DNA from: Phycisphaerae bacterium
GTDB lineage: Bacteria > Planctomycetota > Phycisphaerae > UBA1845 > PWPN01
Direction of reading: 5' to 3'
Assembly: GCA_018003015.1 (NCBI GenBank)
Contig: JAGNEZ010000046.1
Location: 1-53,427 of the forward strand
Length of the DNA stretch: 53,427 nucleotides
Shown: positions 26,566-30,451 of the stretch, piece after piece
Position numbering within the stretch: position 1 is the first letter of the stretch
How the letters are laid out: each line of letters starts with the position of its first letter
Translations under genes and position numbers: made by a program
The notes under the pieces: model-generated
The model's database searches: none
The model's input: the letters and a program-made list of their open reading frames with translations, nothing else
Told to the model about the DNA's origin: nothing

Positions 26566-26755
26566 TGAATCAGGTCGGGCTTAGTATCTTCTGGACGCAA
26601 GAGAGTGATTTCTTTTGCGGAGCGGTTAGGGCGCATCCGGCGTGTGGGGGTGCGCGCCAAACGGCTAGGACGGGGTTTGCAGGCAGGTTGGGTTGGCCGG
26701 GTGAGCTGTTGGGCGGATCGGGCATGAGGCCGGTTTGCCTTCGGGAGTTTGGACA

Positions 26756-29548
26756 GTGGCGTCAATCAAGGATGAGACCATCGGAACGGATGCCCATGAG
26801 GACGATGCGAACGTCGGGCTGAGCGAGAACGCTCTGCGCGTACTTCGGGCGCGGTATCTCAAGAAAGATGAGAACGGCCAAGTGACAGAGACGCCGAAAG
26901 CCCTGTTCGATCGAGTGGCTGGCACGATTGCCGACGTTGAGTTGTCCTACGGCGACCAAGCGCAGCGGGACCACTGGGCGAGTCGTTTTTACGATCTGAT
27001 CGTCAGCGGGCGCTTCATGCCCAACAGTCCGACGCTGATGAATGCCGGGCGTGAGATGGGTATGTTGAGTGCCTGTTTCGTGCTTCCGGTGCGAGACAGC
27101 GTGGCGGAGATCTTCGACTCGATCAAGAACACGGCTCTCATTCAGAAGGCTGGCGGCGGGACCGGATTCGCCTTCGACGAACTCCGTCCCACCGGGGACT
27201 ACATCCGCAGTTCGGGCGGCACGACGTCGGGTCCGATCAGTTTCTGGCGAGCGTTCAGCGAGGCGACGAACGCGATTCAGCAGGGTGCGTTCCGTCGCGG
27301 GGCGAACATGGGGATGATGTACATTCATCATCCCGATATTCTCAAGTTTCTGTTCGCCAAGCAGGACCTCACCCAGTTCACCAACTACAACATCTCGGTC
27401 AAGTTGACCGATCCATGGATGGAAGCGTTTCTGAGAGATGCGGATGCCCCGCATGTCGTTCGCAATCCGCGGAGTGGGCAGGAGTACTTGATTCCCAAAT
27501 CCGTGGAGATTGCCAAGTACGATGTGCGGTCACTGATCCCTATCAGGCGCGGTCAGGACGGCGAGCTGCGGGTTGAAGACTCGGATGGCAACGCCACGGC
27601 CGAGACGGTCGCCCGCGGCTCGTCGTTCGCTATTCCCGTCTACAGCATGCGTGACATCTGGGACATTATCGTCAAGAACGCCCACCAAACGGGCGAACCC
27701 GGTGTGGTCTTCATCGACCGGATCAACGAGTTCAATCCAACGCCGAAGCTTGGCCGGATCGAGGCCACCAATCCGTGCGGCGAGCAACCTTTGCTGCCGT
27801 ACGAGGCGTGCAACCTCGGCAGTATTAATCTCGCCGCGTTCGTGCGCGACGCAGGCACGGGCAAGGCGGACGTGGACTGGGACGCTCTTCGCGAGACGGT
27901 TTACGACGCGGTGCGCTTTCTGGACAATGTGATCGACGCAAACAACTACCCGCTGCCTCAGATCGAAGCCATCTGCAAGGCGAACCGCAAGGTCGGCCTG
28001 GGTGTCATGGGCTTCGCCGACGCTCTGTTCAGGCTCGGGGTGTGCTATTCCTCCGAGGATGGCGTGGCCTGGGGCGAGCGGTTCATGAAGTTCATCAACG
28101 ACGAGGGGCACGACTACAGTGAGAAGCTGGCCGCCGAGCGAGGTTCGTTCTCCAACTGGGCGGGCAGCATTTGGGACACGCAGCATCATCGTCCGATGCG
28201 GAATGCGGCGGTGACCACGGTCGCTCCGACCGGCACGATCAGTATCATCGCCGGTTGCTCCGGCGGCATCGAGCCCATGTTCAGTCTTGCCTTCTTCCGC
28301 AACGTGCTCAAGGGTCAGGATGAAGGCAAGAAGCCCATGGTTGAAGTCAACCCAATCTTCGCCGCCTATGCTGCGGCGAGAGGTCTCGACAGCGAGGGTC
28401 TGATGGATCGTCTTGCCAGGGATGGCACCCTCGCTGGAATACCTGGCGTGCCCGACGACGCCAAGCACATCTTCGTCTGTGCCCATGACATCTCACCGGA
28501 TTGGCACGTGAGGATGCAGGCGACGTTCCAGCGGCACTGTGACGCGTCCATCTCGAAAACGATCAACTTCCCCCACGATGCCTCGGTGGCGGACGTAGAC
28601 ACGATCTATCGACTGGCTTACCAACTGCGGTGCAAAGGGGTCACCGTCTATCGAGATGGGTGCCGGACCGAGCAGCCCATGGCTCTGAAGAAGGTCGACA
28701 AGGGTGAAGCAACCCAGGCCAAGTCCGCCACCGAGGTAAAGAATGCCAGCAAGGAGCTGACTCCCATGGCGACGCCCCCATCTGCCCCTGGGAATGGAGC
28801 CTCCAAAAGCCCTGAGGTGTGCGTCCGCAAGCCGGTCGCCGAGCCGCCGACCATTGAACCGCGCGACATTCCCGAGATTGTCAGCGGATTCCGGATCCGG
28901 CAGATGACGCCGTTCGGCAACATGCACGTGAAGATCACCGTTGATCCGCGCAGCGAACGCGAGCTTGAGGTTTTCGCCCAGCTCGGCAAGGGTGGTGACA
29001 TCGCCAACAGCGATCTCGAAGCGATCTGCAGGTTGATTTCGCTCTGGCTTCGAGCCGGGGGGGCACTCCGGCATGTGATCCGCCAGCTTCGGGACATCGG
29101 CTCCAGCCTGCAGGTGCCGACCAAGGACGGCAAGATCATGAGCCTCGGCGACGGTCTGGCTCGGGCCCTGCAAAAGTACACTCGGGCCAAGGAACGATTC
29201 GGCCTGCGGGCTCTGCTGCTGGGTGAGTGCGATCTCGCCTCGCTGGATCGGCCTGTCGAGGGCCATGCCGGTCCGATAGTACCTCCGACCAGCGTTAATC
29301 CTCATCCGGGCAACGGCAATGGCAATGGGAACGGGAATGGCAAGAATCACGCGCAGGTGACGGAAGTGCGCCACGCTGTCGTGGCAGGTGCTGGATCGAG
29401 CATGGATTCCCATTCGTCCGCTTCCGGCACAAGTGTCCTGACGCCGATCCGTCTTGCGTTCAAGGTGAAGTGTCCTTCCTGCGGTGAAGGGTTGGTTTTT
29501 GCGGAAGGCTGCAACAAGTGCCATCATTGCGGGTGGGCCCAGTGTTGA
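26756..29548 (+). CDS. nrdJ: class II (adenosylcobalamin-dependent) ribonucleotide reductase
   Basis: A 930-aa NrdJ-type enzyme that makes deoxyribonucleotides using a B12-derived thiyl radical, so it works with or without oxygen. Visible signatures are FMPNSPTLMNAGREMGMLSA with a redox Cys just after (about 107), QKAGGGTGFAFDELRP, NPCGEQPLLPYEACNLGSIN with the thiyl-radical Cys (about 341), VAPTGTISIIAGCSGGIEPM, and a C-terminal zinc-ribbon-like CPSCGEGL...CNKCHHCGWAQC. Residues 640-720 and 840-890 are less conserved linkers, the second containing a Gly-Asn dipeptide repeat. The GTG at 26756 is chosen over TTG 26735 because GGGAG lies 8 nt upstream. No R2 partner is needed or present. Confidence 0.95.
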   Translation: MASIKDETIGTDAHEDDANVGLSENALRVLRARYLKKDENGQVTETPKALFDRVAGTIADVELSYGDQAQRDHWASRFYDLIVSGRFMPNSPTLMNAGREMGMLSACFVLPVRDSVAEIFDSIKNTALIQKAGGGTGFAFDELRPTGDYIRSSGGTTSGPISFWRAFSEATNAIQQGAFRRGANMGMMYIHHPDILKFLFAKQDLTQFTNYNISVKLTDPWMEAFLRDADAPHVVRNPRSGQEYLIPKSVEIAKYDVRSLIPIRRGQDGELRVEDSDGNATAETVARGSSFAIPVYSMRDIWDIIVKNAHQTGEPGVVFIDRINEFNPTPKLGRIEATNPCGEQPLLPYEACNLGSINLAAFVRDAGTGKADVDWDALRETVYDAVRFLDNVIDANNYPLPQIEAICKANRKVGLGVMGFADALFRLGVCYSSEDGVAWGERFMKFINDEGHDYSEKLAAERGSFSNWAGSIWDTQHHRPMRNAAVTTVAPTGTISIIAGCSGGIEPMFSLAFFRNVLKGQDEGKKPMVEVNPIFAAYAAARGLDSEGLMDRLARDGTLAGIPGVPDDAKHIFVCAHDISPDWHVRMQATFQRHCDASISKTINFPHDASVADVDTIYRLAYQLRCKGVTVYRDGCRTEQPMALKKVDKGEATQAKSATEVKNASKELTPMATPPSAPGNGASKSPEVCVRKPVAEPPTIEPRDIPEIVSGFRIRQMTPFGNMHVKITVDPRSERELEVFAQLGKGGDIANSDLEAICRLISLWLRAGGALRHVIRQLRDIGSSLQVPTKDGKIMSLGDGLARALQKYTRAKERFGLRALLLGECDLASLDRPVEGHAGPIVPPTSVNPHPGNGNGNGNGNGKNHAQVTEVRHAVVAGAGSSMDSHSSASGTSVLTPIRLAFKVKCPSCGEGLVFAEGCNKCHHCGWAQC

Positions 29549-29580
29549 CCAAGTCTCACGAAAAACGGGTTGCTTTGGGC

Positions 29581-29609
29581 TTGATGTTGTCCGAGTCCTG
29601 TGATATAGA
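29581..29609 (+). promoter_or_regulatory. promoter of a second orphan transcript
   Basis: TTGATG (29581-29586), a 17-nt spacer and TATAGA (29604-29609), preceded by TGA to form an extended -10 (TGATATAGA). It lies 33 nt after the nrdJ stop and no coding gene follows on this strand. Confidence 0.55.
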
Positions 29610-29615
29610 TACCGC

Positions 29616-29935
29616 TTGGCGCGACGTAGGTGATGACGAGGTCCGATACAACGCTTCTTGCCAGTAGTGAGAATGGGGTGAAAACGCGAGATTGCTCGCT
29701 AGCATGGTTTGGGATCCCCGTGTAGACTTCTTACGAGCCAGAGCAAGCCGCGATTCGCCTGCAAGCCCGACTGGGGTGCAAAAAAAAGATGCAAGATTAT
29801 TCGCGGCTTAGCCGACAATAAAAACGTGGTGTCATCGGAGGGTCTGTGGCCCTGGCATGACAGGGCGATTCAGTTTGGCTTCTTTCCCCTCCGGAAAGCA
29901 CCGGGCCAGCCTTAGGCACCTGGTGCTTTCTTTTT
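29616..29935 (+). ncRNA. candidate structured ncRNA, about 320 nt
   Basis: The unit lies between an extended -10 promoter and a strong terminator, and is convergent with rnpA. It contains several perfect hairpins: GCGAG/CTCGC (29686-29699), a long-range 9-bp AAGCCGCGA/TCGCGGCTT (29745-29753 with 29801-29809), GCCCTG/CAGGGC (29849-29866) and the terminator stem. A poly-A stretch lies inside the long loop (29780-29788). I searched by eye for tmRNA, RNase P and SRP signatures and found none. The 68-aa frame across it looks unlike a protein. The family is unknown. Confidence 0.4.
29893..29935 (+). terminator. intrinsic terminator, plus strand, overlapping the rnpA 3' end
   Basis: GAAAGCACC (29894-29902) pairs with GGTGCTTTC (29922-29930), extended inward by GGG/CCT, and is followed by TTTTT (29931-29935). 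The T-run coincides with rnpA lysine codons on the other strand, so part of the signal could be coincidental, but the stem is not explained by coding. Confidence 0.6.
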
Positions 29936-30451
29936 GCGCGCCTTCTGCTGCCGGGGAACCGGCGCGGGGACGAGGCCGCGTCGTTCGGAGGCCGTGGGTC
30001 CGCTTTCCTTGGTGGTATCAGACCCCTGTGAGTTCTTCGCTGCGTTGGTCGCCTCCACCGCTCTTCGGCTTGCCTCGATTCTCTCCGCCAGCTGTCTAGC
30101 CAGGTTGATGATCGAGACCTGGAGACTGCGGGAAGCCATCTCAGCGCCGGCTCTGGGAACGACGACCCAGTCGGTTTTTGACGGAAGCGTGTTTCGGACG
30201 CGGCGGAATGCTTCCCGGATCAGGCGTTTGGTTCGGTTGCGCACGACGGCATTTCCGAGGCGGCGTCCGGCGGCGATGCCGAGTCTGGCCAGGACACGGT
30301 CGGAAGGGGCGCCGTACAGGGTGATCGTGGCATCCGTGGCCCGAATCTTGAGGTCGAACACGCGTTCGAAGTCTCGGCGGGATCGAATCCTGACACTGCG
30401 GGGCAGCGTTTCACGTGGGCGGCTGATGGCGTCTGGTGGGCGGTTGGTCAT
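29912..30451 (-). CDS. rnpA: ribonuclease P protein component
   Basis: A 179-aa protein. The conserved core is SRRDFERVFDLKIRATDATI near the N terminus and, later, RLGIAAGRRLGNAVVRNRTK followed by RLIREAFR, the RNR motif that binds RNase P RNA. It assists the catalytic RNA in maturing tRNA 5' ends. The C-terminal extension of about 60 residues is low-complexity, charged and Lys-rich (ending ARKKKAPGA), longer than usual (most RnpA are 110-130 aa). ATG 30451 is chosen; the open frame extends far upstream but antisense to mazG. Normally rnpA directly follows rpmH; here rpmH is 3.6 kb away. Confidence 0.92.
   Translation of the reverse strand: MTNRPPDAISRPRETLPRSVRIRSRRDFERVFDLKIRATDATITLYGAPSDRVLARLGIAAGRRLGNAVVRNRTKRLIREAFRRVRNTLPSKTDWVVVPRAGAEMASRSLQVSIINLARQLAERIEASRRAVEATNAAKNSQGSDTTKESGPTASERRGLVPAPVPRQQKARKKKAPGA

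Follow-up and report, generated by a model that had tools for sequence, protein, structure and literature searches.

Anti-Shine-Dalgarno small RNAs (sRNAs) have been described in Alphaproteobacteria, where alpha-r14, or "cuckoo RNA", is reported in a summary (PMC10746234, citing Reinkensmeier and Giegerich 2015) to carry the ultraconserved sequence CCUCCUCCC, and where NfeR1 silences ntrB by pairing at its ribosome-binding site (PMC10746234). Transcription of sRNAs by flagellar-type sigma factors is known from E. coli, whose UhpU, MotR, FliX and FlgO are σ28-dependent and in some cases come from 3′ UTR regions (PMC10578931), and from Campylobacter jejuni, whose FliA-dependent CJnc170 (FlmR) has a role in motility (PMC11187230). 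Flagellar-clade sigma factors share the promoter consensus TAAA / GCCGATAA, and the regulons of WhiG-type members include sporulation and type IV pilus genes (PMC8325347).

Here we analyzed a 53,427-nt stretch of DNA (the window), contig C46 of the 6.86-Mb genome of a Phycisphaerae bacterium. On balance, we favor the reading that a multi-copy family of trans-acting sRNAs has one of its members at the end of the interval between the nrdJ and rnpA genes; the C-rich motif of this family would block ribosome-binding sites, and its transcription would ancestrally depend on a FliA/WhiG-type sigma factor. As far as the alpha-r14 sRNAs, NfeR1 and cuckoo RNA are portrayed in that summary, both they and the Phycisphaerae RNA combine an anti-Shine-Dalgarno motif (CCUCCUCCC and CCCCUCC, respectively) with an otherwise variable RNA; however, cuckoo RNA is characterized there by three hairpins each bearing CCUCCUCCC, whereas the Phycisphaerae RNA has a single CCCCUCC between a variable 5′ part and a terminator. 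It also differs in phylum, in promoter type and in having no Rfam sequence match. UhpU, MotR, FliX and FlgO are made by the FliA holoenzyme, which for the Phycisphaerae RNA is a prediction, and the likeness to CJnc170, that of an sRNA under FliA, is predicted in the same sense. A further likeness to the E. coli sRNAs is the origin of some of them in 3′ UTR regions, with the promoter within or close to the preceding gene, but these are Hfq-bound, derive from flagellar operons or uhpT and do not form one family, whereas the Phycisphaerae copies lay outside flagellar operons at the loci inspected. WhiG-type regulons show the same TAAA / GCCGATAA consensus and the use of a flagellar-clade sigma factor on non-flagellar targets, although the targets differ.

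Results

The interval is bounded by nrdJ (26735–29548, + strand; B12-type ribonucleotide reductase; PF02867, PF00317, PF12637) and the convergent rnpA (29912–30451, − strand; RNase P protein; PF00825), both confirmed by Pfam. A preliminary description, made from the letters alone, had placed here a protein-less transcription unit of about 320 nt. Its 12-bp intrinsic terminator (29894–29935, + strand) was confirmed by a terminator scan and by RNA-level covariation across relatives: GAAAGCACCGGG (29894–29905), with an inner GCC/GGC, pairs with CCTGGTGCTTTC (29919–29930) through 12 bp including one G-T and is followed by TTTTT (29931–29935). The reported overlap with the 3′ end of rnpA was also seen, the terminator covering the stop codon (29912–29914) and the last codons of that gene; 29912–29935, which holds terminator sequence and T-tract, reads in antisense as the rnpA stop and last codons (KKKAPGA). 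The small open reading frames of the interval had no Pfam match, loop lengths of different copies differed by numbers not divisible by 3 and none of the frames stayed open, in agreement with the absence of a protein. An Rfam search that included 6S, tmRNA, RNase P and SRP gave no match above the gathering threshold in the window, and a permissive search of 29500–30000 gave one chance match only, in agreement with the reported lack of tmRNA, RNase P or SRP hallmarks. The earlier proposal of a hitherto undescribed RNA that encodes no peptide and ends at a terminator of its own was upheld. A minus-strand RNA folded no better than shuffles.

When 29549–29940 was compared as DNA with 101 relatives, the sister species aligned over the full length at 94% identity; in the other relatives the match was restricted to the last ~60–70 bases. 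The sister species showed 25 differences in total, none of them within 29845–29940 or 29773–29821. The confinement of matches to the 3′ end, together with the location of the sister-species differences elsewhere, indicated that the 3′ end is the conserved unit, and the substitution-free 29773–29821 formed a conserved block at the expected promoter position. Judged by sequence comparison, the 3′ third of the reported interval is genuine, far beyond chance. We therefore replace the ~320-nt extent, whose 5′ 230 nt matched only the sister species, with a predicted sRNA of ~111 nt (29825–29935, + strand), its 5′ end placed from the promoter box described below.

Within this unit, a near-invariant C-rich motif, GGCTTCTTTCCCCTCCGG (29877–29894, + strand), was recognized by its identity across copies and is the proposed seed; its near-invariant form GGCUUCUUUCCCCUCCGG includes CCCCUCC, an anti-Shine-Dalgarno sequence. 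In the predicted fold of 29825–29935, a 5′ arm CGGAGGG (29836–29842) pairs with CCCTCCG (29887–29893), the invariant 3′ arm, and the resulting helix encloses a variable hairpin GCCCTG/CAGGGC (29849–29866), identical in the sister species, and stacks on the terminator. CGGAGG occurred in 32/96 upstream regions compared to 7 control windows. Across 55 copies, the mean unpaired probability in the predicted fold was ~0.65–0.7 for UUUC and ~0.3–0.5 for CCCUCC, the motif being largely masked in many copies, a point against the favored reading.

It is unlikely that the functional product is instead a ~320-nt RNA starting at about 29616, with long-range structure of its own and perhaps acting on rnpA. 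The extended −10 promoter reported for it, TTGATG-N17-TATAGA (29581–29609, + strand), a possible start of a longer form, does exist and has the TG extension, but it matches only 8 of 12 consensus bases; an equally good site arose in 11% of shuffles with TG and in 67% regardless of TG, and a 9-of-12 scan returned no site. In favor of the long form, only 2 substitutions separate 29574–29655 from the sister species. Among the reported stems, the hairpin at 29849–29866 and the 9-bp long-range stem 29745–29753/29801–29809 are present, the latter overlapping the putative promoter of the shorter RNA and preserved in the sister species apart from a single G-U change; however, the fold of the whole 326 nt is unremarkable (z −1.5; 8 of 100 shuffles as good). 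Against the long form also stand the absence of any match to the 5′ 230 nt beyond the sister species and the confinement of rnpA linkage to a few genomes. Conserved structure in relatives, whose absence had been named as a refutation of the preliminary description, was found for the 3′ third.

The distribution of the ~111-nt RNA was determined with a covariance model of 62 positions, built from ninety copies found largely by sequence pattern. The sRNA was detected in 96/101 relatives at 1–6 copies each, also supported by BLAST, and three copies were found in the window genome. In the class Phycisphaerae, 119/298 genomes carried it (E ≤ 1e-6), 55 of the 119 lying outside the order with one copy each; ~25 of these 55 copies were inspected, the weakest being left out. 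A phylum sample beyond the class contained no convincing copy by the covariance model, and weak matches at this level (E ~1e-4) proved to be generic terminators or other motif-free sequence. Motif-pattern matches in Bacteroidota and Bacillota had no terminator and were set aside; several lay in a recurring sequence context, which we interpret as the antisense strand of SGGE codons in ABC-ATPase genes.

The terminator stem covaried both within the order (one pair A-U in 68 and G-C in 21 copies) and class-wide (G-C 35/A-U 24 and C-G 32/U-A 23), so that a G+C stem with a T-tract is conserved at the RNA level, as in an independent unit with an intrinsic terminator. TTTCCCCTCCGG was identical in 99–100 of 100 copies selected without the exact pattern, and TCCCCTCCGG was invariant class-wide, including outside the order. 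The conserved CCUCC-containing motif lies outside the terminator stem, as in anti-Shine-Dalgarno sRNAs, and was found before other hairpins too. At six loci, four of them in different genomes of one genus, g18 (L269–L272, L277, L278), TTCTTTCCCCTCC precedes a different long hairpin; these may be diverged members. Taken together, these features almost certainly define a genuine RNA gene family. The family is well supported and new, no Rfam family matching it, and by analogy it would be a known kind of regulator; a literature search for Phycisphaerae and small regulatory RNA found nothing.

Upstream of the copies, two promoter types were enriched. TATAAT was present in 36/96 non-redundant upstream regions and GCCGATA in 28/96, compared to 2 and 0 control windows, respectively. 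Alignment anchored on CGATA placed an nAA(A/G) element at essentially one offset (19/44), revealing a σ28-type box TAAA-N16/17-GCCGATA. Scores of at least 10 of 11 for TAAAG-N16/17-GnCGATR were obtained in 30/96 regions, 0/96 controls and 36/1920 shuffles, and the score peaked only at a spacing of 16–17. A second set, which overlaps the first and likewise consists of related genomes, so that the counts are not independent trials, gave scores of at least 9 in 68/141 regions compared to 4/141 controls, and upstream TATAAT in 37 compared to 0. Outside the order, 21/23 loci scored at least 10 of 13, with seven perfect TAAAG/GCCGATAA boxes. The family thus carries the lineage equivalent of TAAA-N15-GCCGATAA, at a spacing of 16–17 rather than 15. 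The box ended 13–45 nt (mostly 18–31) 5′ of CTCCCC outside the order, which suggests an RNA of roughly 55–80 nt there, with the motif near its 5′ end.

The corresponding candidate at the window copy, GCAA-N16-GCCGACAA (29791–29818, + strand), is degenerate, with spacing and distance as in relatives. Its score of 8 of 11 is the highest in 29561–29880, is shared by two further sites and is not significant alone; all three copies of the window genome scored only 7–8.

FliA was above the cut-off in 96/101 relatives and in 273/298 genomes of the class. The sRNA was present in 115/273 genomes with FliA compared to at least 4/25 without (odds ratio 3.8, p 0.01, uncorrected for relatedness). Genome G075, which has neither FliA nor flagellin, has an sRNA copy that nevertheless retains a σ28-type box. 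Flagellin leaders of the same groups contained TAAAG-N16-GACGAT or T(A/T)AAG-N15-nnCGATAA boxes; six of them in the order (L188, L193, L194, L195, L203, L206) had TAAAG-N16-GACGATG/GACGAAA, a variant of the σ28 consensus. Outside the order the sRNA box had a spacing of 17 and the flagellin box mostly 15, a difference suggesting that a different sigma paralogue may use the sRNA box. Many genomes of the order encode a second FliA/WhiG-like sigma factor just below the curated cut-off (~185 bits), for example G000:C32:56497–57168. We consider it quite likely that the family was ancestrally read by a FliA/WhiG-type sigma factor; for the window copy we give its continued use somewhat less than an even chance.

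The genomic context was consistent with independent transcription. In the first set, 36/109 copies followed nrdJ and 15/109 followed mnmE on the same strand; the preceding gene was on the other strand in 27/109, and both neighbors were on the opposite strand in 21/109, copies that would need their own promoter. In the second set, 65/94 genomes had exactly one copy just downstream of nrdJ. The gene 3′ of this copy varied (rpsP, rnpA and others), suggesting that the linkage to rnpA is incidental; the proposed control of rnpA is accordingly not supported, as the family occupies many loci and lies next to rnpA only in a few genomes of the same taxonomic family. One copy (L314, G017:C1:2168339–2168400) is ~2 kb from fliA (2170379). 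The recurrence after nrdJ, in those 65/94 genomes, and after mnmE, in 12 or more, would also suit an element that serves solely as a conserved intrinsic terminator for the gene before it and specifies no RNA of its own, as would the little promoter room between the nrdJ stop and the motif at one locus (L117). This explanation is improbable given the 27/109 copies that follow an other-strand gene, the promoter boxes between gene and motif, and an invariant motif that is not part of the terminator stem and is also found next to other hairpins. For an independently transcribed sRNA, the position after nrdJ suggests a possible additional role in terminating the nrdJ transcript.

Discussion

We propose that the RNA consists of a short 5′ part, followed by UUUCCCCUCCGG, the C-rich motif that hardly varies, and then by a Rho-independent terminator. 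It would be transcribed independently, ancestrally by a FliA/WhiG-type σ28 holoenzyme, with the housekeeping sigma factor probably acting in addition to or in place of σ28 at many copies. CCCCUCC would then block translation of target mRNAs by base-pairing with their Shine-Dalgarno regions, in the manner of NfeR1, and in window-type copies the upstream CGGAGGG arm may partly mask the motif, tuning its availability. By this analogy, we lean slightly towards action of the motif through mRNA pairing. At 355 start sites no excess pairing was observed, the real motif performing no better than flank-shuffled controls in this small, low-power sample with crude start calls. nrdJ was rejected as a target, its 26 leaders having no complementarity. 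The extended complement DGGAGGGGAAAGAA gave about 30 matches in 101 genomes compared to 2 for the reversed control, several of them diverged sRNA-like loci or ordinary sequence and not leaders; flagellin leaders had the Shine-Dalgarno GGAGG and not the extended complement.

Titration of a protein such as CsrA through GGA motifs, instead of pairing with mRNAs, would draw on the GGA in CGGAGGG and CCUCCGGA and on the strong GGAGG leaders of flagellin genes in these genomes. However, the predicted fold has both GGA sites base-paired, the short forms outside the order lack the 5′ GGA and invariance is centered on CCCCUCC, all of which make this quite improbable. A dispersed REP- or MITE-like DNA repeat with no RNA function, suggested by several copies per genome, is very improbable: copies number only 1–6, many of them occupy conserved loci, and they have oriented promoters, a T-tract and compensatory changes in the stem.

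The pairing sRNA outlined above is, on the sequence features described here, unusual in promoter class and lineage. Flagellar-type sigma factors and anti-Shine-Dalgarno sRNAs are each known, and their combination was not met in the literature searched. Four genomes (G399, G463, G491 and G519, with loci L414, L419, L417 and L407) had no flagellin match, kept FliA (E about 1e-75 to 1e-79) and carried the sRNA with a near-perfect σ28-type box. On this basis it is possible, though doubtful, that the sRNA is class-wide a core non-flagellar member of the FliA/WhiG-type regulon, through which the sigma factor would tune translation broadly in cells that swim or not. The covariance model can be used for annotating Phycisphaerae genomes, and the class would gain a defined, conserved sRNA with a candidate promoter and seed.
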